In this document: positions 2,793 through 23,369 of the stretch, piece by piece | Layout of the letters: every line of letters begins with the position of its first letter | Position numbering within the stretch: the first letter of the stretch is position 1 | Source: Bacteroidetes bacterium GWC2_46_850 | GTDB lineage: Bacteria > Bacteroidota > Bacteroidia > Bacteroidales > Dysgonomonadaceae | Reading direction: 5' to 3' | Length of the DNA: 54,038 nucleotides | Assembly (NCBI GenBank): GCA_001768325.1 | Contig: MENQ01000022.1 | Span: forward strand, 1 to 54,038 | Program-made: the position numbers and the translations under genes | The notes under the pieces: generated by a model | What the model was told of the DNA's origin: nothing | Database searches by the model: none | What the model saw: only the letters and a program-made list of their open reading frames with translations

Positions 2793-3206
2793 AATTTCCT
2801 TATCTATATTGGAGGTACAAAATTAGTGTTTGCTAAACTTAAGAGCAAGCTCTTCACGTGCTAGCTTGTCAATCACCGGATTGAAATATGACAGCTATTT
2901 TGCTGAAAAAAATCATCTTTGACCAAACTCCCATGCTCTGTTAACTTGCATAACAATTTAAAGCCACCGTTTTTAATTTAAATGCGGAGCAACGTTCAAT
3001 ATATATTTTAATAAATCTGTAATATTTTGTAAGTTTTTTGTTACCAATAACTTTGCTTAATCATTATATATTTGTGACAATATCCGAAAGTACATTCCAT
3101 TGTCATTGCAATGTTCTGATTGGTGATAGTGAAGAACGATTTGTGTTTTGAATAGCCGTAATCACAGCGTTAAATTAGGTGTAATAACATTTTAAAATTA
3201 CTGTTT
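2793..3206. other. Intergenic region with a possible promoter for the downstream secreted protein
   Basis: This AT-rich stretch of 414 bases has no convincing gene. TATATTTG at 3067-3074 fits the Bacteroidetes -7 box (TAnnTTTG) on the plus strand, but no well-spaced -33 TTTG is seen. It would give a leader of about 130 bases to the ATG at 3207. The minus-strand thioredoxin gene must have its own promoter at the left edge of this gap; I could not place it. Confidence 0.3.
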
Positions 3207-4105
3207 ATGAAGAAAATTGTTCTGTTTTTCGCAATTATTGGTATTTCGGCACCCGTGCCATAGCGGTTCCCTCCTGCCTGGATCTTTCCTGTTTAGATAC
3301 CTGTCGTGATGTGCTGGGGGTTCGTCTTATGGCGGGACAATCTCATGAAGCTGGAGTCGTTTACGTGGTCAACACCAGTGAGAAATTGTACGTGGGTTAT
3401 ATGACTACCGGAGACTGGAAGATGGAAGCGGTCCATCTTTATGTGGGCGCCTGCAACAGTTTACCGGTCGACGATGCCGGTAATCTTGCTCCCGCAGATT
3501 TCCCCCATAAGGTTGAATTTGCCTCGCTGCAAAACTTTTATTATGTTGAGATTCCGCTCAGTTTACTGCCCGAAGGATGCGTGTGCATTGTCGCTCAAGC
3601 TGATGTGGTAAAAGTGGTTGGCGGCGAAATTGTACAAAGTGAAACCGCCTTTGGAGAAGGTACAACTGTGGGCAATAACTGGTTTATGAAATTTGATTAT
3701 TGCATAGCCATTTGTGAACAGGTATGTTACAATGATGAAACAGCCTGGGCTACAGGAACCCGGTACGTAACAAAAGGCAGTTGGGCAACCTATACTCCTT
3801 ATGTTGCCAATACCACAGTGAATATTTATGCCGGTCAGAACTACCTGGTGGGAACTGCCACTTTTTCTGAAGTGGTCGATGGTAAAGTAACCATTACGCT
3901 CGCTGCGCTCAATGGTGCAGAGTTGCAGGATATTGCCGAATCGGTAAAAATTCAGGGGTACGTAGCACCGCCTCCTGCCGAAAACCCGGCTCCCGGTCTG
4001 TTTACTACCTATAAGGGAAACGCAACAACCGTAACAGTCGATGCATATGCTTATTACGGAATCCATTTAGACGTACAGCGTGTGGTGGATTGTCCGGAGT
4101 TATAG
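3207..4105 (+). pseudogene. Secreted/surface protein, frameshifted just after the signal peptide
   Basis: ATG at 3207 opens a signal-peptide-like start (MKKIVLFFAIIGIS) that stops at TAG 3261-3263. The long downstream frame (open from before 3240 to 4105) has no good start and reads through GTRAIAVPSCLDLSC before the body. Joining the two with a one-base shift near 3240-3260 gives a normal exported protein of about 298 residues. The body contains a repeat-like domain (KLYVGYMTTGDWKMEAVHLY) resembling domains common in Bacteroidetes secreted proteins of unknown role. GTG at 3311 could be an internal start but would remove export. Either a disabled gene or a phase-variable or sequencing indel. 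Confidence 0.6.
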
Positions 4106-4115
4106 CATACATGGT

Positions 4116-4142
4116 AATAAGGCGGTGCGGCTCCGCCTTATT
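4116..4142 (+). terminator. Stem-loop after the secreted-protein gene
   Basis: A perfect 10-bp inverted repeat, AATAAGGCGG (4116-4125) and CCGCCTTATT (4133-4142), with a 7-base loop, starts 11 bases after the stop codon at 4105. No strong T run follows, so it may act as a weak terminator or as a 3' stabilising hairpin. Confidence 0.6.
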
Positions 4143-4164
4143 CCTCAGTCAACCGTTCAGCACC

Positions 4165-4323
4165 TCTCCCGGAAGTATACGACCGATATTCGATATCTTT
4201 TATTGTTTCCACATAAATCTGATAGCCTACGCGTCTCAAACTCAAATAAAGCGCATTTTCCAACAAATAACCCAATCCGTAACCGTATCCCGCGTAAAGG
4301 TAGTTTGTGAAAAATTTCACCAA
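4165..4323 (-). pseudogene. Scrap of a DUF4143-type ATPase C-terminus
   Basis: The minus-strand frame contains GYLLENALYLSLRRVGYQIYV followed by a DIE, which resembles the conserved region of DUF4143 ATPases (a YLLEN-VYLELxRRGY block followed by an EVDF nuclease-like motif). Nothing else of the gene is present: no Walker motifs upstream and no nuclease end. It is unrelated in frame to the broken ATPase at 173-1351, so it is a remnant of a second family member. The boundaries are approximate. Confidence 0.5.
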
Positions 4324-4330
4324 AAATGTT

Positions 4331-4470
4331 TTTTTTATAAAATAATGTCCTATTTTTGTTGCTCAATGTGTGTTATTTTGCTCTTTTTCATTCTGTTTAG
4401 GATAGTAAAAATCAGAAAGTCTCATTTCCGTACTGGTTAGAGATCTATTATTTATTTTTGTTTCGAAGTT
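4331..4470 (+). promoter_or_regulatory. Conserved promoter and ~100-base leader of module copy 1
   Basis: The 28 bases at 4331-4358 match 15774-15801 upstream of the second module copy at about 25 positions. The match ends in the -7 box TATTTTTG (4351-4358), preceded by a T-rich block at the -33 position. A second shared block, ACTGGTTAGAGATCTAT at 4432-4448, lies exactly 81 bases after the start of the -7 box, as in copy 2. A T-rich stretch then runs to the ATG at 4471. The fixed spacing points to a conserved transcribed leader. Confidence 0.7.
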
Positions 4471-4662
4471 ATGATAGCTACTTTAAAATTCCACTTAGCT
4501 TGCGATAATCGGCAAACCTATCGGGTTATCGCGCGTGAATTCGGCACATCGGCGTTGCATGTCTATAGGTTGGCACATGGGCGACGCGGCAGGAACGACA
4601 GGGATTATTACATCATCAAACGACTCAAGGAAAAGGGTGTGCTTATCTCCACTTTTTTTTAA
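4471..4662 (+). CDS. Small helix-turn-helix-like protein, module copy 1 (first paralogue)
   Basis: The 63-residue protein has a likely helix-turn-helix (YRVIAREFGTSALHVYRLAHG, about residues 18-38) followed by basic residues and a conserved end, DRDYYIIKRLKEKGV. Two paralogues lie at 4821-5015 and 15909-16103, with the same length and the same central motif. I do not recognise a named family. DNA binding is inferred from the HTH-like pattern and small basic nature. It follows the conserved promoter/leader at 4331-4470. Its C-terminus (ISTFF) differs from the others (TVYW, TICW), where the coding sequence runs through a T tract, so the last residues may have drifted. Confidence 0.65.
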   Translation: MIATLKFHLACDNRQTYRVIAREFGTSALHVYRLAHGRRGRNDRDYYIIKRLKEKGVLISTFF

Positions 4663-4685
4663 GGCTGAAAAAGTTACCAAAACGT

Positions 4686-4713
4686 AACCCGATGCAGTAA
4701 ACAATTTCGGGTT
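4686..4713 (+). other. Hairpin between the two tandem small HTH-like genes
   Basis: AACCCGA (4686-4692) and TCGGGTT (4707-4713) form a perfect 7-bp stem with a 14-base loop. A smaller stem, GTTAC/GTAAC, lies just before it. No T run follows. It may be part of a regulated leader for the second small gene. Confidence 0.4.
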
Positions 4714-4820
4714 CCGTTGGTTGTATAGTGAAGTCGATGCGTGGTAATGTTTGTCATTGGATAACGATCCGGTGATGTAAAAACTTGATTGGTTGGAAAA
4801 TATTTTTTAAAGGTCTTGCT

Positions 4821-5015
4821 ATGTTTAATGTGTTCAGATACTACTTTACTTCGCGTAACAAGAAGATTTACCGGACCATTGCACGGGAATTTGGTACGTC
4901 GGTGCACCATGTTTATTGTCTGGCACACGGACGTCGTACCAAAAACAATATGGACTACTATATTGTTAAACGTCTAAAGGATGAAGGGATTGTCTCTTCC
5001 ACTGTTTATTGGTAA
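4821..5015 (+). CDS. Small helix-turn-helix-like protein, module copy 1 (second paralogue)
   Basis: This 64-residue paralogue of the preceding gene contains YRTIAREFGTSVHHVY and ends DYYIVKRLKDEGIVSSTVYW. I chose ATG at 4821 because MFNVFRYYFTSRNKK aligns with the starts of the other two copies; an upstream start would add 12 unmatched residues. It is directly followed by the dehydrogenase-domain gene at 5058, the same order as 15909-16790. A regulatory DNA-binding role is inferred. Confidence 0.7.
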   Translation: MFNVFRYYFTSRNKKIYRTIAREFGTSVHHVYCLAHGRRTKNNMDYYIVKRLKDEGIVSSTVYW

Positions 5016-5057
5016 TTGGATTTATCGGAACGAGAACTTTTATTTATTACTACATCA

Positions 5058-5723
5058 ATGCGACCCATATCAACAATTTCAGAAGATGATTACTCATATT
5101 TTGATCCCCGTGTCTGCGTAATCGGACTTGGCCACACGGGGTTAGTCCATGCTCTCGCCTTCAGTGAGAGCTACAGGACCATCGGATACGATTCAGATCA
5201 GACACGTGTAGAAGAGCTCAGGCGAGGGCACGACAGCCTGTCAAGGGTCTCGGGAGAACTTGTGCAGCAAGCTTTGCGCAAAGGCTTCACCTGCACGTCG
5301 GACCTGGAAGATATCCGCAAGTGTAATTTTTTCGTCATCACCCTTCCCCCGGAAGCTATTTTAAGCGACGATCCCGATCGACATCCCCTGCGGAGTGCCT
5401 GCGAGGTTGTGGGACGGGTGATCTCCGGAGGCGACATTGTGGTGTTCGACTCCTGCGGTTGTCCATCCATGTCGGAGAAAGAATGCATACCCATGGTTGA
5501 AAAGTTAAGCGGCTTCATCTGCAACTGTGATTTCTTTGCCGGATACAGTCCCGGCCCCCTCCAGTTTCCCCAGAAAGGGTTTACCTTCTGGAACGACGGG
5601 AAAATCACGTCCGGCAGTACGCCCGAGATTGCCAAGATTGTAGATGAAGTCTACATCAACGCCTTCGGTGCCGACTCGCTCGTCACGCCGCTGCGGGAAA
5701 CCATCCTGGGCCGTGTGATCTGA
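5058..5723 (+). CDS. Standalone NAD-binding domain of the UDP-glucose/GDP-mannose dehydrogenase family, copy 1
   Basis: The 221-residue protein matches only the N-terminal Rossmann domain of nucleotide-sugar dehydrogenases: VIGLGHTG at about 21-28, a GYDSD strand end, and later FFAGYSPGP and SGSTPEIAKIVDEVY. Full enzymes are about 420-450 residues; here the dimerisation helix, catalytic cysteine and UDP-binding domain are absent. The protein ends cleanly and the copy at 16116 ends at the same place, so this looks like a stable single-domain design rather than decay. Sugar oxidation is unlikely; sensing a nucleotide sugar or NAD(H), or acting with the small HTH protein, is possible. ATG 5058 is preferred over the TTG at 5016 by alignment with copy 2. 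Confidence 0.75.
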   Translation: MRPISTISEDDYSYFDPRVCVIGLGHTGLVHALAFSESYRTIGYDSDQTRVEELRRGHDSLSRVSGELVQQALRKGFTCTSDLEDIRKCNFFVITLPPEAILSDDPDRHPLRSACEVVGRVISGGDIVVFDSCGCPSMSEKECIPMVEKLSGFICNCDFFAGYSPGPLQFPQKGFTFWNDGKITSGSTPEIAKIVDEVYINAFGADSLVTPLRETILGRVI

Positions 5724-5746
5724 AACCGGGAACGTTCATGAATTTG

Positions 5747-5772
5747 ACCAGAAGTTTACTTCTGGTTTTTTT
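5747..5772 (+). terminator. Rho-independent terminator after module copy 1
   Basis: ACCAGAAG (5747-5754), loop TTTA, CTTCTGGT (5759-5766), then a run of T to 5772. It is a textbook intrinsic terminator ending the small-HTH/dehydrogenase-domain transcript 24 bases after its stop. Confidence 0.9.
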
Positions 5773-5861
5773 ATTTCTAAATCTTATTAAGGCTGCAAAA
5801 ATAATTTACACTGTTGTGGAGATGCACAGCCCCTGGCTAGAGCCTCTATGTTGATTGTTTG

Positions 5862-6320
5862 TCAAATTAAGTCAGGTTTGTTTAGTTTCTCTTTTTTTTT
5901 CGCTTTTGATTCAAATAATGCATTCATATCAATGGAGTGAAAGCTAAATGATCCTAATGGATAATAAGAGGTTGCATTGCAAATAAAATTTCTCAGATTA
6001 GTTATTGAAATATTAACTGCTGACCCAATAAGTATTTTTTTTTCCTTATCATCCGTTCCTTCCATAAAAGTGAATAATGTTGCTCCGGATGCAAATATAC
6101 TGTATCCAAAATCAGCATCGTCTTGGTTGTTTATCTGAACTTTTGAAAAAACAAATAGATTACCTTCTTTGTTGGTCTTGATGTCAAAATCGATATCAAC
6201 TGGGAGTTCATTCATCCTGCTCATGATTTCATTTTGGGAAAGCTTGCAAGGATTAAAAGATATCCTACAGTTAAAAATATTTGATGATAGTAATCTTAAT
6301 TTAGATTCTGCTGCAATCAT
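5862..6320 (-). CDS. SecB-like chaperone of a toxin-antitoxin-chaperone (TAC) operon
   Basis: The 152-residue protein is about the length of SecB (E. coli, ~155). Its final third carries a SecB-like pattern: ISITNLRNFICNATSYYPLG followed by a short hydrophobic/asparagine-containing tail (MNALF). SecB-like proteins fold as small beta-sheet chaperones that hold unfolded proteins. In TAC systems a dedicated SecB stabilises the antitoxin. It is the third gene of the operon, five bases after the antitoxin stop, matching the order toxin, antitoxin, chaperone known from M. tuberculosis HigB1-HigA1-SecB-TA. The assignment rests on the weak C-terminal pattern plus context. Confidence 0.65.
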   Translation of the reverse strand: MIAAESKLRLLSSNIFNCRISFNPCKLSQNEIMSRMNELPVDIDFDIKTNKEGNLFVFSKVQINNQDDADFGYSIFASGATLFTFMEGTDDKEKKILIGSAVNISITNLRNFICNATSYYPLGSFSFHSIDMNALFESKAKKKEKLNKPDLI

Positions 6321-6325
6321 ACTTA

Positions 6326-6763
6326 CTATGCGATATAATTATATTGATACTCAGTAGTGGGATAATCCTCCAGTTCGTTTAATTCGGTTTGCTTTTTTAA
6401 AGAATATTCCTTTTTATAGGACATGTATCCTTTCTCATGAATCTTTTGGAGAGAATCCATTAATTCCTGTTCGTCCTTGTTGCTACATTTCTCATCTTTA
6501 TTTATGTATTCTTCCAGGTTCTTAAAACTAATATCAGGAACTAAGCCAATAGCTAAGGAAAGTTCAACCATTTTAGAAATTCTGTGGTCGGATTCCCCAT
6601 TTAGTATTTGACTTATATATCCTTTGGTTACACCAAGTTTTGTAGCTAACTCAGACCTCTTCATATTGTTATTTTCAAGATAGTTTGAAACCTGATTGAA
6701 TAAATCAATTTGGATTTTTGATAGCCAATATTCCTTACTACTTAGTAATTGTTTCCTATCCAT
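6326..6763 (-). CDS. XRE-family antitoxin with a long C-terminal tail (TAC antitoxin)
   Basis: The protein is 145 residues. A helix-turn-helix lies at about 35-60 (SELATKLGVTKGYISQILNG), typical of HigA-like antitoxins that bind both their toxin and the operon promoter. Beyond about residue 85 it has a roughly 60-residue charged, Tyr-rich extension. In chaperone-controlled antitoxins such an extension is the chaperone-addiction sequence that makes the protein unstable until SecB binds; that equivalence is inference here. It lies 6 bases after the toxin gene and 5 before the SecB-like gene. Confidence 0.75.
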   Translation of the reverse strand: MDRKQLLSSKEYWLSKIQIDLFNQVSNYLENNNMKRSELATKLGVTKGYISQILNGESDHRISKMVELSLAIGLVPDISFKNLEEYINKDEKCSNKDEQELMDSLQKIHEKGYMSYKKEYSLKKQTELNELEDYPTTEYQYNYIA

Positions 6764-6769
6764 AATTAT

Positions 6770-7159
6770 TTATATGTTTAAATACCTTTTTATGAGACTT
6801 GTAAGACTATTTATATCTGATTTCTGTTTATTTTTATACCCACATAACGCCACAATTCTATCAGGATTACTCTTTGAATGAAAAAAATAGATTCTTAAAT
6901 GTTTACTTTTAAATTCGAAAACAAAGACGTTTTTTATGTTTAAATGTATCGTGCCTAATTTACCTGGTGGTATAATAGATCCATCCGAAAATAACTGTGC
7001 ATAAGAAATCAGTGTTGTAAATTCTGAATAATATTGTTTGTTAGTACGAATTTCTTTTTCAAAGACATCAAGAGCGCATGTGCCATTAATTTCCAGTTTA
7101 TAGAAATCATATTTACCACCCTTTATGGCTTCTATCTCTTTTAAAACAAAATCAGACAT
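6770..7159 (-). CDS. HigB/RelE-like toxin (TAC toxin)
   Basis: The 129-residue protein has a RelE/HigB-like core: a mid-protein stretch FVFEFKSKHLRIYFFHSK, then DRIVALCGYKNKQKSDI and a final helix. This resembles the LRI-YFF / IVLL-GF-KK-QK-P pattern of HigB-type ribosome-dependent RNases. It is the first gene of the operon, whose order matches known TAC systems. The toxin fold is inferred from these motifs; catalytic residues were not assigned with confidence. Confidence 0.65.
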   Translation of the reverse strand: MSDFVLKEIEAIKGGKYDFYKLEINGTCALDVFEKEIRTNKQYYSEFTTLISYAQLFSDGSIIPPGKLGTIHLNIKNVFVFEFKSKHLRIYFFHSKSNPDRIVALCGYKNKQKSDINSLTSLIKRYLNI

Positions 7160-7177
7160 AAAAAGTTTAGTAATTAC

Positions 7178-7191
7178 TATACAAAAGTATA
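7178..7191 (-). promoter_or_regulatory. Promoter and likely operator of the TAC operon
   Basis: On the minus strand TACTTTTG (complement of 7182-7189) fits the Bacteroidetes -7 box. It lies inside the inverted repeat TATAC-TTTT-GTATA (7178-7191), about 20 bases before the toxin ATG at 7159. An inverted repeat over the promoter is where a HigA-type antitoxin would bind to repress its own operon. Confidence 0.55.
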
Positions 7192-7364
7192 AATGTTTTC
7201 ATTAATATAAAAAGTAAATTCAGACTTTAACATTAGTCTATTTTAAATTGAGAGAATAAATATATCAAAAACAGCAAACCAACCAAATCCACTGATTATT
7301 ACCTTGCAATATTATAACTAAATTTTTAATAAAAAAAGAAATTCAATGGAAAATAGTAAACAAG

Positions 7365-7697
7365 TTATTTCCCTCGAAGTAAACGCCATGCGGCAAGCAG
7401 GATGCCCAAAACAATTCCAACCATTAGTAATTTCAGGTTGAAAGGGTAGGAGGGAGCCGATTTCTCCTTCAGCTCCCTGTTTTCCCGCGTCAGTTTGTCC
7501 ACCGAGAGCTGCAGGCTGCTGTTCTCCCGGGTGAGGCTCTCCCGTTCCAGCGACCACTCCTTTTGTTGATGCTCCACGTCGGCCACCGACTTTTCGTACC
7601 GGCTGAGATTCTTGGTGATGCGCTCACTCATGACCGGCTGTTTACCCGTTGTCGTGTCGATCGGAGCCGCCGTGTCGTATTTAATCTCATAACTCAT
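7365..7697 (-). CDS. Coiled-coil membrane protein of a phage-like gene patch
   Basis: From ATG at 7697 the protein is about 110 residues. It has a charged coiled-coil-like middle (heptad-like Glu/Arg/Leu, about residues 35-80), then one hydrophobic segment (LLMVGIVLGILLAAW) and a short basic end. A longer start at 7793 exists, but its extra residues overlap the frame of the lysozyme-like remnant and look non-coding. It could be a spanin- or tail-associated component; no named family is recognised. Confidence 0.5.
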   Translation of the reverse strand: MSYEIKYDTAAPIDTTTGKQPVMSERITKNLSRYEKSVADVEHQQKEWSLERESLTRENSSLQLSVDKLTRENRELKEKSAPSYPFNLKLLMVGIVLGILLAAWRLLRGK

Positions 7698-7714
7698 CCC
7701 CTCGGTCCGCAGCG

Positions 7715-7921
7715 TCACGTTCCCCTCTCTTCCACCGGCATCATCGTTGCGGCCGTCTCGTGGTAGGAGGTAGCCAGCATGTAGGCGCGCCATCTGTCAT
7801 CCACGATGCCATGCCGGTCGAATGCCGACAGCTTGTGTTCGATGCCCCTGCGCTGTGCCGGTGAAAGCCGCCCGTTAAAGAGCGACCCGCTGATCGATTC
7901 AAAAAACATACTCTTATCCAT
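7715..7921 (-). pseudogene. Truncated lysozyme-like (endolysin) protein
   Basis: The 68 residues match the start of a phage-type glycan hydrolase family: RLSPAQRRGIEHKLSAF, then RWRAYMLATSYHETAATM with the His-Glu pair where such enzymes place the catalytic Glu. It stops at about one third of the expected length, immediately before the coiled-coil gene. The rest of the catalytic domain is missing, probably through deletion. Confidence 0.6.
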
Positions 7922-8414
7922 GACCCAATCTTTTAAAAGTACCCATTGTCGGTTTGCGCATTTCGCAATCCTTCACTACGCAATAGTGGTAATCGCCATC
8001 CTGGCGCCACGTCAGCTCCCGTTCAACCGTCTTCTCCAGGCCGGTGATGCGGCGGTGATCCTCCGTCCGCTGCAGCTGCAACAGCTCCAGGTCCCTTTTC
8101 AGCTTGTCGTTCAGCTTATCCCGATCGCGCACCATGTTGAGCAGACTCTCGGCATTCGATTCGTTGTATGTGTTCATCCGCTCCATGTGAGCGACCGTGC
8201 GTTCCAGCAGTCCCATCATCTCCGTCGCCGCCGAGGCATCCTCCCTTCGTGCCAGCGCCTCCTTCTGCACCGCCTCGCTCTTTTTGATGCGCTTGTTCTC
8301 CTTGCGGTTGATCACGTTCGAGATGAATCCTCCCAGTGCGCCCCCGCCCATGAATGAGCTCAGCAGGGCCAGCAGCTCGTTGTTCAGTTGAAGTATTTCC
8401 ATCATCATGTACAA
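7914..8414 (-). CDS. Coiled-coil protein with N-terminal hydrophobic segment (phage-like)
   Basis: The 166-residue protein starts with a hydrophobic, Gly-rich segment (LLSSFMGGGALGGFISNVI, about residues 17-35). A long charged coiled-coil follows (about 40-135), with a His/Cys-containing end (HYCVVKDCEM). It overlaps the start of the lysozyme remnant by 8 bases. Proteins with this layout accompany endolysins in phage-derived clusters. A membrane-associated structural or lysis role is possible but not shown. Confidence 0.5.
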   Translation of the reverse strand: MYMMMEILQLNNELLALLSSFMGGGALGGFISNVINRKENKRIKKSEAVQKEALARREDASAATEMMGLLERTVAHMERMNTYNESNAESLLNMVRDRDKLNDKLKRDLELLQLQRTEDHRRITGLEKTVERELTWRQDGDYHYCVVKDCEMRKPTMGTFKRLGHG

Positions 8415-8475
8415 AGTTTATCCGATAAGCGGAAGAGAACCGCCCCTTTCAGAGCGGCTCTGCAACCTGTTACCC

Positions 8476-9120
8476 TCATACGGTGATGATCTCAACCTGA
8501 CCCGTGTAGACCGTGTCAGACACCTGTGCGCCATCTTCCGATGCAAATGCCACGAAAGTCTCCACCGTAGCGCCGTCCCATGTGGGCGGTATCTCCAGCA
8601 AACCATTTCCTGCAGCCCTTGTCGCCACATTCAAGTCGTACACTGCCTCCTCTGTGGTGGGGTTGTAGGCGACAGTCATGACCCGGTCCTCCGTCGACGT
8701 GTTGTTCCGCAATGCCGCATCCCAGGTGAACTTCAACTTCCCCGCCTCGCAGGCTGCCGTCACGTTGGCCGCCGGATACAATCCACCTATGGCGATGGCC
8801 ACCTGTTGAAAGTCGATTTCAAAATCGGGGTACTCTCCCTTCACCCCGTTCCGGATGTTGTATGACATGGCCGCACTGAAGGCGCTGTTAGAGGTGCCGG
8901 CGACATGTTTGAACCCCACCCGGATTACCGGGATGATGCACTTCAGAAACTTTCCGATCAGCGAAAATCTGTTGCGCTGCGTCACTTGCTTCTCGGTGCG
9001 CGGGTTGCGCATGCTCGACGGCAAACTTCGCATGTAGGCGATGTTCCTCCAGGAGGCGCCCACTACGTTTCCCACTTTGCCGGAGAAACTTCCCAGAATT
9101 CCCTTTTTAATTGTTCCCAT
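8476..9120 (-). CDS. DUF6266 family protein, copy 1
   Basis: The 214-residue protein opens MGTIKKGILGSFSGKVGNVVGASW, the signature start of DUF6266 proteins, followed by RNIAYMRSLPS and NPRTEKQVTQRNRF. Two beta-rich parts follow. The family is common in Bacteroidetes and of unknown function, often in phage-like or accessory clusters. A second member lies at 11276-11911 on the other strand with the same start pattern. Confidence 0.8.
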   Translation of the reverse strand: MGTIKKGILGSFSGKVGNVVGASWRNIAYMRSLPSSMRNPRTEKQVTQRNRFSLIGKFLKCIIPVIRVGFKHVAGTSNSAFSAAMSYNIRNGVKGEYPDFEIDFQQVAIAIGGLYPAANVTAACEAGKLKFTWDAALRNNTSTEDRVMTVAYNPTTEEAVYDLNVATRAAGNGLLEIPPTWDGATVETFVAFASEDGAQVSDTVYTGQVEIITV

Positions 9121-9220
9121 AATTTAAACTTTAAAAATTAAACAATACGGACTTGGCCTTATCCACAGGCAAAGTTTGGGAAATCCTTGTTACGCCGGTA
9201 CTTTTAGGATCATTTGTCTC

Positions 9221-9283
9221 TCAAATGGTATTGGTAGTACATTAAATGGTATGAATAGTCCCCCAAATGGTATGGGGTGTGCA
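9221..9283 (+). repeat. Three 21-bp iterons
   Basis: Three direct repeats start at 9221, 9242 and 9263, exactly 21 bases apart. They share AAATGGTAT followed by a looser G-rich half. The period equals two helical turns, so all copies face the same side of DNA. They lie upstream of the DUF6266 gene and just downstream of a small HTH gene, so they could be binding sites for a regulator or replication-type protein. Confidence 0.7.
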
Positions 9284-9300
9284 TAAAATCTTTTGCCTCA

Positions 9301-9350
9301 GGTGGTATGCAGTGGTAGCTGAGATGTTAATGCGACCACTACATACCACC
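9301..9350 (+). repeat. Long inverted repeat with a distant direct copy
   Basis: GGTGGTATGCAGTGGT (9301-9316) and ACCACTACATACCACC (9335-9350) are inverted copies with one mismatch, forming a 16-bp stem with an 18-base loop. The left arm plus 8 further bases recurs at 10274-10297 with one difference. It contains the TGGTAT core of the nearby iterons and sits just after the stop of the HTH gene on the minus strand, so it may end its transcript or serve as a recombination or protein-binding site. Confidence 0.6.
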
Positions 9351-9365
9351 AATTAACTTTTAGTG

Positions 9366-9572
9366 TTAATCAGGCTGCTTTCCATTAAAGTTGTTCCTCA
9401 ACAAATTAAGGATATCCGACTTCCGGTAATACAACCTCTTCTTCAGCCGCGAAAACGGCAGGAACCCGCTGATGCGCCAACGTTGCAGTGTGCGCGGCAT
9501 GATGTGCAACTTCTCCATCACATCCTGCCCATCAATCCAGTCGGACCATTCCGACAAATGTTTTTTTTTCAT
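9366..9572 (-). CDS. Small HTH (excisionase/MerR-like) DNA-binding protein
   Basis: The 68-residue protein has a winged-helix pattern: WIDGQDVMEKLHIMPRTLQRWR, followed by GFLPFSRLKKRLYYRKSDI. This is the common HTH_17-type layout (helix, turn, recognition helix with RTLQRWR, then a wing with LYYR). Such proteins control mobile-element excision or local promoters. The iterons and inverted repeats around it (9221-9283, 9654-9680) are candidate binding sites. Confidence 0.75.
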   Translation of the reverse strand: MKKKHLSEWSDWIDGQDVMEKLHIMPRTLQRWRISGFLPFSRLKKRLYYRKSDILNLLRNNFNGKQPD

Positions 9573-9653
9573 CGTCGCATTCTTTTATTTAAGTTATAAA
9601 ATTCACCCACCATCGGGGCGCTCCGGCGAAGATAGGCATCCGCACAGCGGCGG

Positions 9654-9680
9654 AGTGACTCCATATATCCCGGAGTCACT
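9654..9680 (-). promoter_or_regulatory. Inverted repeat upstream of the HTH gene
   Basis: AGTGACTCC (9654-9662) and GGAGTCACT (9672-9680) form a perfect 9-bp inverted repeat with a 9-base spacer, about 80 bases upstream of the HTH gene start. It is a candidate operator, or a terminator for transcription coming from the antitoxin gene. Confidence 0.45.
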
Positions 9681-9797
9681 TCTGTATATACTATTTTTAA
9701 CAATATTTACAATCGTTTAATCATCGAAAGCGTATTTCTTGCTGTAGATCAGTATTTTATGTGTTATTCTTAGGCAGAGAAAGGTAGTTTGCCTACA

Positions 9798-9840
9798 ATT
9801 AACGAAACTTGTTAAAACATTGGATGGTATCTCTTTCTAA
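9798..9840 (-). repeat. Duplicated 3' end of the ImmA/IrrE gene
   Basis: Bases 9798-9833 match 12445-12480 at about 32 of 36 positions. The matching part covers the last codons of the ImmA/IrrE protein (here reading R-Y-H-P-M-F-stop, there E-Y-Q-P-M-F-stop) plus bases after its stop. Only this scrap is present here, joined to the ParE-like remnant. It is the footprint of a recombination or deletion between related copies. Confidence 0.75.
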
Positions 9841-9843
9841 CTC

Positions 9844-9900
9844 TCATTTTTTAAGCTCAGATTCAGCTCTATTTGACCATATTATTGTTTTTTTTGCCAT
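9844..9900 (-). pseudogene. ParE/RelE-type toxin, truncated after 17-18 codons
   Basis: ATG at 9900, overlapping the antitoxin's last codons, starts MAKKTIIWSNRAESELKK and then meets TGA at 9844-9846. The sequence is the typical first strand and helix of ParE toxins (IIWS-RAE-EL). The rest of the toxin is missing and is replaced by the scrap of ImmA/IrrE 3' end. The toxin is certainly inactive. Confidence 0.75.
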
Positions 9901-10118
9901 GCGGTTAGATCCTCCATAACAACAGAATGCGGTTTGTATTTTCCATTTTCAATATCTTTTCTGCCGGCATCAATCGATTCTGATTGTTCAGCGTTCAGCT
10001 TGTACAATTCTTGCTCAGAACTGTCAAATATGGTCTGCAGCGCGTTTAGGAATTTCTCATCATTTGAGTTTTCTATTCGGGATATCAAATTTTTCTTTAG
10101 AATTGATGTTGTATTCAT
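9882..10118 (-). CDS. Antitoxin-like protein of a broken ParDE-type module
   Basis: The 78-residue protein, with MNTTSILKKNLISRIENSNDE, a helical middle, then DAGRKDIENGKYK, matches the small Bacteroidetes antitoxins that precede ParE/RelE toxins. Its 3' end overlaps the truncated toxin start by 19 bases, the usual arrangement. With the toxin lost, it is an orphan that may still be expressed and could neutralise related toxins elsewhere. Confidence 0.7.
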   Translation of the reverse strand: MNTTSILKKNLISRIENSNDEKFLNALQTIFDSSEQELYKLNAEQSESIDAGRKDIENGKYKPHSVVMEDLTAWQKKQ

Positions 10119-10273
10119 CTTGACTTATTTAATTGATGTCACTTTTAGTACTCCGAAAGTAATACTTTCTATATTACTAAACAAATGAAATACAGAATAG
10201 ATTTTATCTGTTCAAAAAATGTTGATTTTGTGTTCGTCAAGAAACGAGTTGTGCTGGTGAGATTCCCCTCTCC

Positions 10274-10297
10274 GGTGGTATGCAGTGGGAGCTGAGA
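10274..10297 (+). repeat. Second copy of the 24-bp repeat
   Basis: It is identical to 9301-9324 except for one base (GGTGGTATGCAGTGG then G instead of T). It lies in the gap after the frameshifted gene 10358-11283, just as the first copy lies after the HTH gene. No inverted partner is present here. Confidence 0.65.
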
Positions 10298-10357
10298 CCT
10301 TTAGATGTTTGGCGGGGCACCCATCGCGTGCAGGGAGCGTAAAAAGAGAAATTGTTA

Positions 10358-11283
10358 TTAATCATCGAAAGAATCTACCTTGCTGTCATTCAGTGTTTTT
10401 TGCGCGATTTCAGGGAAGATCTCCAGGAATAAATAGAACACCTTGCGCAGGTCCTTTTGCGTTTGCGGACTCTCGAAGGAGAAGTTCAGATGCGTTTTGA
10501 TGTTTTGATAATGCCTTCCGGTTAACGTCTTGATAAATCGGATCCAGGACTCCTTTGTGGTGTTATTGAAATTCACACCCAGCTCGTTGAAGAGATAGTA
10601 AAAGACAAGGATCTCATGTTCTTCAGTCTCTCCTCGTCCAGTTGATAATTAGAATGCTCCATCATGCAGAGCACGATCTCCATCACGGTAATTTTCAACA
10701 GGTTATTGTCGGGCAGGAGTTGTTTCACCACGCTCCTTGCCTCCCACACGTCATTCAGTTTGGCCCGCATTTCATCGAACAGGGCATAAGACCGGTTGAA
10801 GGCATCGAGCCACCAGTCGTTGTCCCTCTCCAGCTCCCTTTTCCTGTTGTGGTAGAAAGCAGCATTCTCCTCATCGAGCAGGTATTCATCCAGGCTCTCT
10901 TTCGGATAATCCTCCTTCGACCGTCTGATCATCTCCTGAATCTGTTGGGGCGTATTGTCGCTCACCGACTTCGGTTCACCCGTCTTCAGCGATTCCATGC
11001 TGGTGAATCCGTTTCTGTTTTCTGCAATGATGTTGTGTGCATAAATAAAAGAGTCATCCTCCTTCAGGATGTTGAGGATCTCTGTTCTGACAGCAAAGAT
11101 TTTATAAATCTTCGGAGGGACGTTCTTGTTGTCGTCCTGGTGCGTGGCAAGGTACTGCGCGTCCGCGAAAAGATGGGAGTTTGTATATTCCTCCGTTTTT
11201 CGGTGATTCATGCGCAAGGGAGAAAGATCGTCGATCGTTTTCTTCACCCGATCGTAGAATTTTAGTACCCTTATCATGGGCAT
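10358..11283 (-). pseudogene. Hypothetical protein with a frameshift near its C-terminus
   Basis: ATG at 11283 opens 236 codons that end at 10573 in a poor tail. In another frame the sequence reads HEILVFYYLFNELGVNFNNTTKESW and continues naturally to the stop at 10358. A one-base shift near 10615-10625 therefore restores a protein of about 305 residues. The body is charged and helical, without a recognised domain. Its start overlaps, head to head, the start of the DUF6266 gene on the other strand by 8 bases. It is either a pseudogene, a sequencing indel or, less likely, a programmed shift. Confidence 0.6.
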
Positions 11284-11911
11284 ATTAAATAAAAAGAAGG
11301 AAGACCGATTGTCGGGCAGGTTGGGCGACGTGGTCTATTACTGGAGAAATGGCAGGCAACTGTTCCGCTCGTATGTGGCACCCGTCAATCCGAAAACACC
11401 CGCGCAGAAAGCGCAGCGTACCAAATTAAGTGTGGCCAGCACCCTCGTGTCGCAACTTTATGGCGCCATCAAGCACGGCCATAGGAACACCTTCATCACT
11501 TTTGGAACCATTTGTGGCAGGGTGATGCGGGAGGCCATCACCGGTGAGTCACCCCCTTTCACCATCGACTATAGCAAGATCCGTATTGCCGAGGGCCCAC
11601 TACAAAAGCCACTACATATCCTCGCTTCCTATGATCCCGCAACCCGTCAAATGCGGTTTACCTGGGACAGCGCATTGGTCAACTACCCTTCGCAGGGAAG
11701 ATTATCCGACAGGATTCTCATCGTCAGCTTTCTCGAAAAGCCGCAGCCCCAAGTGAAGACTCACGTTGTGGGTTCCCGTGGCGACAAGGAAGCCACCTTC
11801 ACGCTCCCCGAGGGCTGGGATTCCCACAATACCCACTTCTGGCTATATGTTTCTTCACTCGATGGGGAGGAGCATTCCGGGAGTGAGTATGTGGAGGTGA
11901 AGAGATGTTGA
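11276..11911 (+). CDS. DUF6266 family protein, copy 2
   Basis: The 211-residue protein has the family start pattern (MGILNKKKEDRLSGRLGDVVYYWRNG) and NPKTPAQKAQRTK, and the central FTWDSAL that the copy at 8476 shows as FTWDAAL. Function unknown. It is opposite in orientation to the rest of the island and its 5' end overlaps the start of the frameshifted gene, so the two genes share a tight divergent junction. Confidence 0.8.
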   Translation: MGILNKKKEDRLSGRLGDVVYYWRNGRQLFRSYVAPVNPKTPAQKAQRTKLSVASTLVSQLYGAIKHGHRNTFITFGTICGRVMREAITGESPPFTIDYSKIRIAEGPLQKPLHILASYDPATRQMRFTWDSALVNYPSQGRLSDRILIVSFLEKPQPQVKTHVVGSRGDKEATFTLPEGWDSHNTHFWLYVSSLDGEEHSGSEYVEVKRC

Positions 11912-11912
11912 T

Positions 11913-12431
11913 TTAACCCCAAGCTTTTAATCGCGTATCTATCTCACTCATTAAATGTTTATTATTTTGGAAAAAATAATTCAATGAGACGAGTTGGCTC
12001 AATTTTTCTGAGGCCTCTTTTCTTGCTAAAATTCCTAATCGAACCAGTTCATCAAAAATCCAAATGATGCCGTGACATTCGATGGATTTATTTTTAGCAT
12101 GATTTCTGACAGTTCGATCGCTGCTTAATACAGAGGCGTTTAGTTTGTTGGCTATGTGTAAAACCGACTTGTCAGTCTCAGATAAAGACTTGGAATATCC
12201 TTCTGAATATATTTCAAGGAAGTCATTTTCCGTAAGATTATGAATAACAAGTTTATTGACAGACTGATATGCTTTCAAAACAAGTTGTTGCTCATTATTT
12301 AATTCAAAGTAAACACCCGATGTAGTGTGAACTTCCAATTCCAGACCAAAAAAAGAAGTGATTAAATCTATATCAAATAGATCTATAAATATACAAGCAT
12401 CCGTTACGGCAATTTTGAGTATCATTTTCAT
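11913..12431 (-). CDS. PIN-domain ribonuclease-like protein, partner of the ImmA/IrrE gene
   Basis: The 172-residue protein has the acidic residues of a PIN nuclease: Asp in AVTDACIFIDLF (about residue 10), Glu in VYFELN, and Asp residues in ETDKSVLHIA and VLSSDRTVRN. PIN proteins cut RNA and are frequent toxins. It follows the XRE-peptidase gene after 27 bases on the same strand. The pair looks like a two-gene toxin-antitoxin-type or stress module in which the metalloprotease/HTH protein would control the PIN protein. Confidence 0.75.
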   Translation of the reverse strand: MKMILKIAVTDACIFIDLFDIDLITSFFGLELEVHTTSGVYFELNNEQQLVLKAYQSVNKLVIHNLTENDFLEIYSEGYSKSLSETDKSVLHIANKLNASVLSSDRTVRNHAKNKSIECHGIIWIFDELVRLGILARKEASEKLSQLVSLNYFFQNNKHLMSEIDTRLKAWG

Positions 12432-12458
12432 GTGCGGTATTAAGATTAACGAAGCTTG

Positions 12459-13523
12459 TTAAAACATTGGCTGGTATTCCTTTTTAAATTCAGCCAAAGA
12501 ACGGTTCGTTAATGACGCTGCTTTCGACATTGAAATTTGGTCTTCAATCAGTGCCCTGAACAATAGTTGCTCGAACCGGTTACTCTCCTCTACCCCTATG
12601 TAATCCACGGGCTCATCAACCCTCCAGTTCATCTGTTTCATTAACTGGAAAAATTGATTCGTATAATGATCATTTATTATACCACACTCGTTGGCGCGCA
12701 TGACGATAGCTTGCATCGAGATGCCATACTGTTTTTTGATACTGGCAAGCTCGAGGTATGAAAGTTTATTTCTGTGCTCTCCTAACTCGGTCATGATCGT
12801 CTCTTTCGGTAGCAACATCGCTCCCGAAAATTGGTGACATAGCGTTTCTTTCTGTTTTTCAGTCACATCTCCAAATTTCAATAACAGGTGAGCCAACTCG
12901 TGAAGCAAAGTAAAACGTATCCTGTCCGGCTTATTCGTTTTATTTACATTATAGGCAATTACCGGAATGTTGTCATTCACAAAAGCTTGTAAGCCATCGA
13001 AGTTCTCAGAAACATCCAGTTTTATAACCTTGATGTTCTTCTCTTCCAGCAGTTCCACGATATTAAATATGGCTCCTTTTCCGAGAGACCACTTTTGCCT
13101 GATAATCTCGGCTGCCTTATCAACATGATCGTAAAGGGTAACCTCAGGATAGTCTGCAAGTGGATGCTCAAACTCATTGTGAAGTCCGATGATCTCCTCC
13201 AGTTCTAAGTAGCGCGAAAGATATTCTCTTGCTTTTTCATTAATGATCGCTGCATCCTTTTTTGATAATTTGTCTATTTTTCTGAATTCAAAATCACCCA
13301 GTTCCACTCGGGTAGTCCTGAAGAAATAGTCAGGTGTAACACTTAGCGCTTTGCTTAGTTTATTAATTTTTTCCGAATCAGGAATAACTTCTCCTTTCTC
13401 GTACCTGTGTAATGCCTGTCTGGTCAATATATTACCCATTGCGTCAGCCAAATCCTGTAACGAATATCCGTTCATTAACCTGGCTGATTTAAATCGTTCT
13501 GCAAATATCCTTTTTATATCCAT
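12459..13523 (-). CDS. XRE regulator fused to an ImmA/IrrE-type metalloprotease
   Basis: The 354-residue protein has an N-terminal HTH (about 10-70, with LQDLADAMGNILTRQALHRYEKG) and a zinc-protease domain with HELAH at 208-212 and the following LCHQFSGAMLLP. ImmA/IrrE proteases cleave repressors, as in ICEBs1 ImmA and Deinococcus IrrE. The fusion to an HTH suggests self-contained control. A 36-base piece around its 3' end is duplicated at 9798-9833. Upstream inverted repeats (13614-13662) are likely its operator. Confidence 0.85.
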   Translation of the reverse strand: MDIKRIFAERFKSARLMNGYSLQDLADAMGNILTRQALHRYEKGEVIPDSEKINKLSKALSVTPDYFFRTTRVELGDFEFRKIDKLSKKDAAIINEKAREYLSRYLELEEIIGLHNEFEHPLADYPEVTLYDHVDKAAEIIRQKWSLGKGAIFNIVELLEEKNIKVIKLDVSENFDGLQAFVNDNIPVIAYNVNKTNKPDRIRFTLLHELAHLLLKFGDVTEKQKETLCHQFSGAMLLPKETIMTELGEHRNKLSYLELASIKKQYGISMQAIVMRANECGIINDHYTNQFFQLMKQMNWRVDEPVDYIGVEESNRFEQLLFRALIEDQISMSKAASLTNRSLAEFKKEYQPMF

Positions 13524-13613
13524 CTGTCACACTTTTATTATTACAACGCAAAAGTAGCATGTTTGGTTGACAAATACAATAAATATAACTTGTTTTTAAT
13601 ATGATAAGCCATT

Positions 13614-13662
13614 GTGTCATGACGTATGACACGCTGAATTAGAGTAAATGAGACATAATGTC
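13614..13662. promoter_or_regulatory. Inverted repeats in the divergent promoter region
   Basis: GTGTCAT (13614-13620) and ATGACAC (13626-13632) are perfect inverted arms with a 5-base spacer. A second palindrome, GACATAATGTC (13652-13662), shares the TGTC/GACA core. They lie between the XRE-protease gene on the minus strand and the Ubl cassette on the plus strand and are the likely binding sites of the XRE protein. Control of the Ubl cassette by the same protein is possible. Confidence 0.65.
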
Positions 13663-13700
13663 GCTTGATGAATAAAAAATAATTTAGTTTACATACATGG

Positions 13701-13731
13701 TTGACAGAATTGTTAAATGGTACGATATTTG
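13701..13731 (+). promoter_or_regulatory. Probable promoter of the ubiquitin-like cassette
   Basis: TTGACA at 13701-13706 is followed after about 20 bases by GATATTTG (13724-13731), one base off the TAnnTTTG -7 box. The position is about 40 bases before the ATG at 13773. Confidence 0.45.
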
Positions 13732-13772
13732 TAAACTAAATTTCGAAGTTTAATATAATTTTTTTTTGGATT

Positions 13773-14141
13773 ATGGAGAAAATTAATGGGGCGCCTGAAA
13801 CGCAAAGTGAAAAACCTTACATTATCTTTATTGATAAGGTAAAGTATGAAACTGGTAACTCACACCTAACCGGTACAGAGTTAAAGGAGATGGCAGGATT
13901 ATCGAAAGAGTTTAAAATTTTCGTGAACACGCGAGAGAAAATTTGGTTACAGCCTTCAATTTCATTCGGACAACTCATGGAGTTAGCGTTTGGTGTTTAT
14001 GAAGATATGCCCCATATCGCTTATACTTCAACGTATGACAAAGGTCCCAAAGAAAATAGGAATGGTGTTTTTGTAAAAGGTCAGCGTGTTTATGTAACAA
14101 ATAACATGATTTTCAATGCAACAAGAACTGATAAGTCGTAA
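13773..14141 (+). CDS. Ubiquitin-like (multiubiquitin-type) modifier protein
   Basis: The 122-residue protein has a single Ubl-like unit: IIFIDKVKYETGNSHLTG followed by TELKEMAGL, the strand-helix pattern of bacterial multiubiquitin domains. It ends with [20 protein letters not shown], an ending typical of this protein group. No C-terminal diglycine is present, so either it is processed or conjugation uses another tail. It overlaps the E1-like gene by 26 bases. The role as a modifier follows from family and context and is inferred. Confidence 0.7.
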   Translation: MEKINGAPETQSEKPYIIFIDKVKYETGNSHLTGTELKEMAGLSKEFKIFVNTREKIWLQPSISFGQLMELAFGVYEDMPHIAYTSTYDKGPKENRNGVFVKGQRVYVTNNMIFNATRTDKS

Positions 14142-15294
14142 TAATGACCTTAAATGTCTCAGAGACGAGGGTTACGAGGTAGAGATACGTGGTGGATATT
14201 TACTTATCCATCACGTGCCCTACCTTAATAGTGAAAAGAACATTTGTTTTGGCACTCTTGTCAGTACCTTAACATTAAGGGATAGTAATACAGTTGCGAG
14301 ACCTGATAATCATGTGATTCATTTTATAGGAGAAAATCCATGTGAAATAGATGGAAATCCTATTTCAGCGATTCAGCATGACAACAATAGTAAACAATTT
14401 GGAGAAATCGTAGTAAACAGATCTTTCTCGAATCGGCCTCCTGATGGTTATCCAAACTACTATGAAAAAGTCAAAAGGTATGCCGATATTATCTCCGCAC
14501 CCCCTAAATCTTTATATCCCGCTGTAACTGAAAAAACATTCAAGCCAGTCATCAGCAAAGATTATGAAACCGTCTTTAATTATGTTGACACCAACTCCAG
14601 CAGAGCAAGTATTGACAGTATCAATTCAAAATTTGAGCATCAAAAAATTGCAATAATTGGTTTAGGGGGTACAGGGTCATATATTCTCGATCTTGTAGCC
14701 AAAACCCCGGTCAAGGAAATCCATCTTTTTGATGGTGATGATTTTGATCAACACAATGCTTTTCGAGCTCCCGGTGCAGCCTCCCTTGGAGATCTGGAGA
14801 AACATATGAAAAAAACGGATTACCTTGCGAGTATCTACTCCAATATGCATAAAAATGTCATACCACATGGTTTTTATATGGACGATACCAATATTGATAG
14901 ACTAGGCGAAATGAACTTTGTGTTTCTGTGTATTGATAAAAACAGCGTTCGAAAAATAATAGTCGATTATCTGTTAAATGCAGAAATACCCTTTATTGAC
15001 GTTGGCTTAGGTGTAATCGAAGTGGATGGTAAGTTAAGCGGATTGGTGCGAACTACAACCGTTACAGAAGGTATCTCGAGTCAAGCTTTATCCTCGATTC
15101 CTATGGTCGACAGTGATATAGATGATGCCTATTCGTCCAACATACAGATAGCAGACCTTAATGCTCTAAATGCTTGCTTCGCTGTAATACGATGGAAACA
15201 ATTCCTTGGTTTCTATATTGATTTTGTCAAAGAATATAACAGTGTTTTTTCTATTGACACAACTATCATTAATCATAGCCGTGATGAAGCATAA
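14116..15294 (+). CDS. ThiF/E1-like activating enzyme with an N-terminal DUF6791-like domain
   Basis: The protein is 392 residues. Residues about 175-392 form a ThiF/E1 adenylation domain: GLGGTGS at 182-188, [11 protein letters not shown] at 204-214, and [11 protein letters not shown] with Asp274, then IPFIDVGLG. The N-terminal ~150 residues contain [15 protein letters not shown] with Cys76. That domain resembles the DUF6791 region seen before ThiF domains in bacteria; whether Cys76 acts as an E2-like cysteine is inference. E1 enzymes adenylate the C-terminus of a Ubl using ATP. It overlaps the Ubl gene by 26 bases and the next gene by 11. Confidence 0.8.
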
Positions 15295-15682
15295 GTTTGT
15301 AGATATTGTTCCAGAAGATATGGAAGACGGAATATTGTATATTTCTATCAAGTATGGGACAGCTATACATCTTTGTGCGTGTGGTTGCAAGAACGAGGTT
15401 GTAACGCCATTTTCGCCAACCGACTGGCAGCTTACTTTCGATGGAAAAACAGTATCACTCTCTCCCTCTATTGGTAACTGGAGTTTTAAATGCCAATCAC
15501 ACTATTTCATTAAAAACGATGAAATTATATATGCACGGAAATTGAGCAAAAATGAAATAAGGAAAGGAAGGAAAAAAGATCAAAAGCAAAAGACGAGATT
15601 TCTTAAGAAGGCAAGAATTAGTCCACTTGCATGGTTGGGCTTAAAAAAACGAATACGGTATGAGCAAGAAAGTGACCAGTAA
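15284..15682 (+). CDS. DUF6527-like small zinc-binding protein
   Basis: From ATG at 15284 the protein is 132 residues. A likely metal site is formed by Cys31, Cys33 and Cys35 (LCACGC) with Cys70 and His73 (FKCQSHYFI). The middle contains VTPFSPTDW and a Ser/Pro-rich strand. The C-terminal ~40 residues are strongly basic. DUF6527 proteins travel with DUF6791/ThiF and Ubl genes. It could act as an E3-like adaptor, a deconjugation factor or an RNA/DNA-binding effector; the sequence does not decide. The longer frame from 15206 overlaps the E1 gene and is not preferred. Confidence 0.65.
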
Positions 15683-15773
15683 AGAAGCGGCCTGAAGAGT
15701 AAACATTTTTGTCTTTCAACAGTTGTGCGCAAGATTTATAAATGAACATTATAAAAAATTCTCTAAAATATTT

Positions 15774-15908
15774 TTTTTTATAAGATATTGTCCTATATTT
15801 GCATCATATATTTCTATATAATTCATTATAAGTTGGATACAGGGTTAAGGGAAGTGTCAAAAAAGGACACTCCAACTGGTTGGAGACCCATTTTTTTGCG
15901 TAGTAAGT
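15774..15908 (+). promoter_or_regulatory. Conserved promoter and attenuator-like leader of module copy 2
   Basis: The promoter block 15774-15801 matches copy 1 (4331-4358) at about 25 of 28 bases, with -7 box TATATTTG at 15794-15801. The leader has competing stems. AGTTGG (15831-15836) can pair with CCAACT (15872-15877). AGTGTC (15853-15858) can pair with GACACT (15866-15871). CTCCAAC (15870-15876) can instead pair with GTTGGAG (15879-15885), followed after five bases by T7 (15891-15897). Mutually exclusive pairings ending near a T run look like transcription attenuation. The fit is imperfect because of the five-base gap. Confidence 0.6.
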
Positions 15909-16103
15909 ATGATTTCAACGTTTAAATTTTACTTTACCTCCCAGAACCGGGAGGTGTACAGAACTATTGCGCGCGAATTTCACACATTGCCGATACATGT
16001 CTATCGGTTGGCACATGGCAAGCGCGGCAAGGGCGATAGAGACTATTATGTCATCAAGCGGCTCAAGGAGGCGGGAGTTATCGATTCCACCATCTGTTGG
16101 TGA
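15909..16103 (+). CDS. Small helix-turn-helix-like protein, module copy 2
   Basis: The 64-residue protein is a paralogue of 4471-4662 and 4821-5015: MISTFKFYFTSQNREVYRT, then IAREFHTLPIHVYRLAHG, then DRDYYVIKRLKEAGVIDST. The AREF-xT-x-HVYRLAHG helix-turn-helix core is conserved. The dehydrogenase-domain gene starts 12 bases later, and the legionaminic-acid genes follow about 1 kb downstream. A role as a regulator of the polysaccharide locus is inferred from position. Confidence 0.7.
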   Translation: MISTFKFYFTSQNREVYRTIAREFHTLPIHVYRLAHGKRGKGDRDYYVIKRLKEAGVIDSTICW

Positions 16104-16115
16104 CAGATACCCGGA

Positions 16116-16790: not shown

Positions 16791-17157
16791 CAAAAACTTA
16801 ATGGCGACCTGTTGAAACATTTTGGTGTATGATGTGTTTATAGGGCAGCAAAATTGTAGAACCATGTCCCATATTTTGTATTTGACAAAATAAAAAAGAA
16901 CGGATATGGTTTTTTATTGTAATTTTGTAATACTGCGAAAATGAATCTGCCGCGCGTAATTTCTATGTGACTGGTAGTCACGAAGTGCGCTTGCACGACA
17001 GGATGTTGTGCTGGAAATCAACATTTCTCTATTAAGTCACGGTATAAACAAATGACTCCCATTTGTTGTAAGATGAAACATATACTAGCCATCTTTTGCA
17101 CCCGGTAAATCATTGGGCTGAACCACACCAAACGATCATTGTACTTAAATAATAAAA
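16791..17157 (+). other. Leader region before the polysaccharide genes
   Basis: The 367 bases hold no gene. Features seen: a promoter-like TAATTTTG at 16920-16927; a perfect hairpin GTGACT-GGT-AGTCAC at 16967-16981 followed by a small GTGC/GCAC stem; and, at about 16866-16879, a sequence loosely like the conserved module promoter (ATGTCCCATATTTTG). A long structured leader before a capsule operon would suit antitermination control, but no UpxY-type antiterminator gene is in the window. Confidence 0.4.
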
Positions 17158-18345: not shown

Positions 18346-18359
18346 TTGAGATTTTGGAA

Positions 18360-19499: not shown

Positions 19500-19500
19500 A

Positions 19501-20142: not shown

Positions 20143-20146
20143 GCAG

Positions 20147-23360: not shown

Positions 23361-23369
23361 GAAAGAATA

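Follow-up and report, generated by a model that had tools for sequence, protein, structure and literature searches.

The locus described here raises the question of whether a very small gene accompanied by the lone NAD-binding domain of a UDP-sugar dehydrogenase is debris or a working unit and, if it works, what it does. The window, i.e., the whole stretch of 54,038 nucleotides that was analysed, is contig G000:C22 of a 3.75-Mb genome, and the genus sample used for comparison comprises 39 genomes. The module is present in two copies, at 4330-5770 (copy 1) and 15773-16790 (copy 2). In each, a promoter motif is accompanied by one or two small ORFs (63-64 aa) and by a 221-224-aa NAD-binding domain of the UDP-sugar-dehydrogenase family. 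A preliminary description had reported two copies with the same gene order; the two copies stand, and the identical order does not, as the small genes number two in copy 1, where they are in tandem, and one in copy 2. Its count of three small-gene paralogues holds for the entire genome, searches of which yielded exactly three small genes and two short dehydrogenases, every one inside the window.

In copy 1, all on the forward strand, a promoter -7 element TATTTTTG within the conserved TGTCCTATTTTTG (4351-4358) is followed by a leader (4359-4470), the small genes S1 (4471-4662, 63 aa) and S2 (4821-5015, 64 aa), and the short pseudo-dehydrogenase (5058-5723, 221 aa), whose ATG lies 42 nt past the S2 stop and whose frame is open from a TTG at 5016. 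The copy ends in a terminator-like hairpin with T-run (5746-5775), of which the hairpin proper, with a 9-pair stem and a 4-nt loop, occupies 5746-5767 and the tail reads TTTTTATTTC; a scan of 4250-5800 gave three terminator-like sites against a shuffle mean of 1.7. In copy 2, on the same strand, the -7 element TATATTTG within TTGTCCTATATTTG (15794-15801) precedes a leader (15802-15908), S3 (15909-16103, 64 aa) and, 12 nt past the S3 stop, the second short pseudo-dehydrogenase (16116-16790, 224 aa). This leader holds a hairpin, CTCCAA-CTGG-TTGGAG (15870-15885), ahead of a T-run. In both short dehydrogenases, PF03721 is the only dehydrogenase domain.

Both promoter elements belong to a motif shared among the upstream regions of small genes, TGTC[CT]TA[TC]NTTTG, which occurs in 10 of 21 such regions; 300 shuffle sets (first-order Markov) did not contain it once. 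The -7 element is of the Bacteroidetes promoter type. The leaders gave fewer clues. No Rfam match was obtained in the copy 1 leader, and the only known RNA family matched in 3000-18000 lies at 8707-8860, under its gathering score. Leader hairpins averaged -3.2 against -2.4 in shuffles (21 leaders). An attenuator was considered and set aside as unconvincing, with hairpins of -5 kcal/mol or lower in 24% of the 21 leaders and 14% of the shuffles. An invertible promoter was also considered: five inverted-repeat pairs were found in 3300-6400, the longest of which (14 nt, 4255-4268 and 4788-4801, 93%) flanks the promoter and S1; none was found in 15200-17200.

The two dehydrogenase copies share 55% identity in protein and 66% in DNA, and the leaders share 63% in DNA (copy 1 region 4330-4470), which points to either an old duplication or separate acquisition of the copies. 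In a simulation of 2,000 sequences based on the copy 2 gene (second-order Markov model), none kept the open frame.

Both short proteins match PF03721, the NAD-binding domain, above its gathering score (E 1.3e-12 for copy 1, 8.2e-13 for copy 2), and the Pfam scan of the two gave neither the central domain PF00984 nor the C-terminal UDP-binding domain. They also match the TviB model (NF011729; E 6e-40 and 1.3e-36, far under its cut-off), the likeness to this TviB-type UDP-N-acetylglucosamine dehydrogenase spanning roughly the first 200 of its 425 positions, and the short copies end near one common domain boundary. The Glu of the SPER motif is catalytic in these enzymes, as is a Cys later in the chain. 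Each of the 16 full-length proteins compared carries SPER, its Glu position is altered in all nine short copies compared (eight open copies from the genus and one, G466, from outside it), and in window copy 1 the YSPER of the full-length enzymes reads YSPGP. The position of the catalytic Cys falls past the truncation point. With the SPER Glu and the central and C-terminal domains all missing, the normal dehydrogenase reaction is not expected. The preliminary description had portrayed these genes as a NAD-binding domain and no more, with a common end point, frames kept open despite DNA divergence and a dead catalytic centre; the first three points are borne out, and the residues predict the fourth.

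Truncation close to a domain boundary could also be read as one half of a split enzyme that is completed by a separate C-terminal protein. We give this next to no probability. The Glu inside the retained part has been lost too, and a search of this genome for the other half led to its one PF00984 match, which sits in a full-length frame of 446 aa on another contig.

Dehydrogenase matches were found in 21 of the 39 genus genomes, and nine loci are of the short type: two in the window genome (G000) and one each in G005, G006, G007, G011, G017, G031 and G025. The G025 copy is broken, and that of G017 is open with an internal deletion, which leaves eight open copies in seven genomes, that of the window included. 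A search of 101 genomes of the family added one further, diverged short copy in a different genus (G466) and a 161-aa match in G485 that is cut by the contig end. In the order sample, 265 of 393 genomes had matches, and among the matches listed, with candidates capped for each genome, the only open frames below 280 aa were the two of the window, the next shortest being 282 and 298 aa.

In a phylogenetic tree, one branch separates eight short from 16 full-length rows (support 99/98), and in a second tree, built without G003 and G024 and with G466 and G467, nine short and 15 full-length rows lie on either side of it (98/96). The full-length G028a and G002 are the tree neighbours of the short group. 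The tree program warned of long branches, and the placement of G466 and G017, both on very long ones, is unsure; the broken G025 copy was excluded from the trees and from the selection analysis, and the full-length G021 is absent from the trees. Purifying selection is evident in dN/dS: among 28 pairs of short copies, dS was measurable in 22, many of them with dS above 1, and in these the ratio is 0.11-0.39, the other six pairs being saturated; for the close pair of G000a, one of the window copies, and G006 the value is 0.23.

These data bear on an objection to the module, namely that its homologues are full-length enzymes and the window copies are pseudogenes, truncated as polysaccharide loci were shuffled. 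The broken frame in G025, the deletion in G017 and the long branches of several short copies are of the kind that decay would produce. A dN/dS well below 1, open frames in eight of nine genus loci, a similar end and shared derived residues all speak against decay, and no C-terminal remnant was found adjoining the short genes, so that we regard this explanation as very unlikely. Recent truncation was examined separately and rejected: no remnant is adjacent, the hits at loci L075, L076 and L092 are separate full-length dehydrogenase genes that belong to neighbouring polysaccharide genes, and the hit at L077 is the full-length G028b. Judged from their sequences, the short dehydrogenases are a pseudoenzyme lineage under selection and not a series of new truncations.

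The small protein is more widespread than its partner. A single-sequence search found the family in 20 of the 39 genus genomes, and a profile search found it in 29 of 101 family and eight of 393 order genomes, several of these matches being fragments or containing stops. Eleven positions are invariant in an alignment of 19 members (Y17, A21, V31, Y32, L34, A35, H36, G37, D45, Y46 and L52), and dN/dS is 0.07-0.39 where measurable; both genes of the pair are thus under purifying selection. The label "HTH-like" that the protein had been given is tentative: HTH models match, all under threshold (HTH_28 in four of 19 members, best E 0.0038; HTH_23 in two; HTH_24 and HTH_7 in one each), as does the unrelated BTB_2 in three of 19, and a profile comparison with two HTH proteins of the window gave no match. 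A PDB sequence search returned nothing better than E 0.7. In NCBIfam, S1 and S3 match best, far under the cut-off, to a segment of the archaeal-type RNA polymerase subunit B'' (S1, E 1.4e-4; S3, E 0.0048; S2, same segment, E 0.1), covering 4471-4656, 15909-16100 and, in S2, 4821-5012; this recurrent match is probably due to chance.

Outside the genus, distant relatives of the small protein occur in other Bacteroidales genera (L128-L136), and most of these nine loci lie, by eye, beside genes unrelated to polysaccharides. At one of them (L132, in G203) the gene adjoins GDP-sugar and other polysaccharide genes. No Pfam model scored above cut-off in the members of the wider family that were scanned.

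A search for homologues of the small protein together with their neighbours shows that its pairing with the short dehydrogenase, proposed from the window alone, is recurrent. A small gene lies within 500 nt of the short dehydrogenase at eight of nine genus loci, one of them broken, and at none of 17 full-length loci (Fisher p 5.8e-6); leaving out the broken G025, the figure is seven of eight. This count merges two pieces on G017:C161, treats short contigs as complete, and omits three weak dehydrogenase matches (two on G032:C125, one on G023:C19), a small-gene match inside a 1095-aa frame in G033 and ten matches outside the genus. The same-strand small gene is directly upstream in six of nine cases, namely, both window copies, G006, G011, G017 and the relic in G025, with stop-to-start gaps in the other genomes of 41 (G006), 40 (G011) and 74 nt (G017), to be set beside the two of the window. 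In G005 the dehydrogenase is ahead of the small gene, and in G007 the two genes are convergent. No small gene was found for the short dehydrogenase of G031, nor for that of G466 in the other genus. Conversely, 26 of the 35 small-gene matches in the genus are without a short dehydrogenase within 500 nt, many of these being fragments or on short contigs.

The divergence of the two partners is correlated over seven pairs (r 0.76, a value reached in 35 of 5,040 permutations); where there were two small genes, in copy 1 and in G007, one was chosen (S2 for copy 1). The correlation rises to r 0.80 without G007 (7 of 720) and to r 0.93 without both G007 and G005 (1 of 120). The pair recurs and is co-inherited, and neither of the two outcomes that the preliminary description had named as refuting it, mere truncated pseudogenes of full-length enzymes or a small protein that never accompanies the domain, was seen.

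Such co-inheritance invites the idea, close to that of the preliminary description, that the Rossmann domain is a sensor which, on binding NAD(H) or a sugar nucleotide, switches its HTH partner, as Rex does in one chain. The NAD-binding loop is partly in keeping with this: GxGxxG is complete in six of nine short copies (both window copies, G005, G006, G011 and G466), and none of the nine varies in the first two Gly of the loop or in the Asp that ends strand 2. The third Gly is missing in G007, G031 and G017, the C-terminal UDP-binding domain is gone, and the Pfam hits include no Rex-type domain. Nucleotide sensing as first proposed is therefore unsupported, the HTH matches of the presumed partner being below threshold as well. 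We consider it unlikely, and give it somewhat more weight than we otherwise would, as the loop has lost no more than its third Gly in the three copies.

The position of the pair suggests where its function may lie. A polysaccharide-synthesis gene begins at 17158, 367 nt past the copy 2 short dehydrogenase, and polysaccharide genes are on the same stretch as the short gene in five of eight genus genomes (G000, G005, G007, G017 and G031). None is evident on the stretches from G006 (only 5.9 kb), G011 and G025, or on that from G466, so the earlier placement next to a polysaccharide locus fits those five genomes, that of the window included. By eye, the genes in 17158-24044, of which the first was scanned, resemble a run for legionaminic/pseudaminic-type nonulosonic acid synthesis; the right end of the locus carries a Wza-type export gene (51929-52216) and, by eye, a Wzc-like gene, and two ORFs that look transposase-like by eye lie within it (28909-30072 and 34638-36155).

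A second association concerns the antiterminator UpxY, six of 31 above-cut-off genes for which have a small gene within 500 nt. In G020, G027, G034, G009 and G038, the small gene follows UpxY on the same strand at a distance of 176-322 nt, and in G016 it is 138 nt upstream. The contigs of the five downstream cases, most of them short, hold no short dehydrogenase. The gene after the UpxY-linked small gene encodes a GH97 glycoside hydrolase in G020 and G027, and in G009 a GH97 gene is upstream of UpxY. The window contains no UpxY. The sole above-cut-off UpxY of its genome is on contig C23 (L137 11562, G000:C23:201561), near genes that by eye resemble restriction-modification genes and with no evident polysaccharide operon on the 19-kb stretch that holds it.

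Other neighbours point elsewhere. In G006 and G011, the short gene is directly convergent with a cassette encoding a coiled-coil/TM protein, a GH19-like protein and DUF6266; the cassette lies past the small gene in G005, past two ORFs in G025 and past three ORFs at window copy 1, where the GH19-like gene is truncated (GH19 scores are at or slightly under the Pfam cut-off). The convergent genes in G466, where there is no small gene, include a GH108 muramidase. Lysozyme-type insertions have been described in capsule loci of Parabacteroides distasonis (PMC9409006), where the muramidase-type genes are oriented against the capsule-locus genes, as here. The enzyme there is an amidase, and the main text does not contain the terms "dehydrogenase" or "small protein". 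The short dehydrogenase might accordingly be cargo of a lysozyme-type cassette near polysaccharide loci, serving the convergent muramidase genes. Convergent cassettes are absent from the stretches of window copy 2, G007, G031 and G017, and a search of IMG/VR gave no relatives of either the short dehydrogenase or the small protein, and we find this a rather improbable account. A phage origin of the module was dropped on the same IMG/VR result, and a role in anti-phage defence was dropped since PADLOC gave no match for S2 or either short dehydrogenase.

The GH19-like gene, 197 aa in G006, is shortened to 68 aa in the window (7715-7921 and 7365-7793). Two DUF6266 proteins are encoded in the window (8476-9120 and 11276-11911); a DUF6266 gene also immediately precedes the small gene in G017 and lies some 6 kb from it in G009, and a literature search found no paper naming this family. 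Between the module copies, accessory genes occupy 12459-15682, among them one for a 354-aa HTH/ImmA-like protein (PADLOC RmrA models, E 3e-47) and another for a ThiF/E1-like protein whose best E1-E2 match has E 1.7e-8; relatives of the two sit together in G009 (L085).

Taken as a whole, the pair is probably a working accessory or control unit and not debris, to judge from selection and recurrence in the sequences. As to its role, our preferred reading, which we advance tentatively, is an accessory or regulatory pair of polysaccharide loci that combines small basic HTH-like protein(s) with a dead dehydrogenase domain. The unit, often at the edge of capsular or exopolysaccharide loci in this genus, would consist of a promoter, a leader, one or two small proteins and a single-domain pseudoenzyme that presumably descends from a UDP-N-acetylhexosamine dehydrogenase of the kind found in polysaccharide loci. 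The small protein may bind nucleic acid and adjust transcription of polysaccharide genes, in some species perhaps together with an adjacent UpxY, and the short Rossmann domain would be a partner that assists it, most likely as a non-enzymatic modulator that binds protein and, in some species, possibly nucleotide. This role is suggested by position and by analogy with UpxY/UpxZ (PMC7315117), and we reduce its weight because a polysaccharide context is seen in only five of eight genus genomes. A bolder, doubtful version would make the dead domain, captured from a polysaccharide locus, the subunit with which a tiny HTH regulator senses a ligand or a partner, a capsule switch through which polysaccharide transcription would track the sugar-nucleotide or redox state or the presence of the full-length enzyme.

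The preliminary description knew of no comparable system, and our literature search likewise found no description of such a pair of small protein and dead dehydrogenase. Rex is a redox repressor with an HTH and a Rossmann domain within one chain; the module resembles it in having both elements and differs in that they would reside in two proteins, that the Rossmann domain is of another family and that the NAD loop is incomplete in some copies. TviB and the NDP-sugar dehydrogenases (NF011729, TIGR03026) share their N-terminal NAD-binding domain with the short copies, which lack the central and C-terminal domains, have lost the SPER Glu and form a separate group. If the accessory or regulatory reading is correct, the module would be a clean case of evolution from enzyme to regulator that started from a polysaccharide biosynthetic enzyme. 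In Bacteroides, UpxY/UpxZ and the inversion of promoters are known to control capsule loci, and the upxY and upxZ genes begin the capsule operons (PMC7315117); here, five small genes occupy the place of UpxZ after UpxY. The small protein, at 63-64 aa, gave no hit to a UpxZ model when scanned against Pfam and NCBIfam. A conserved pseudoenzyme joined to a small regulator-like protein would then represent a form of capsule control unlike either UpxY/UpxZ or promoter inversion.
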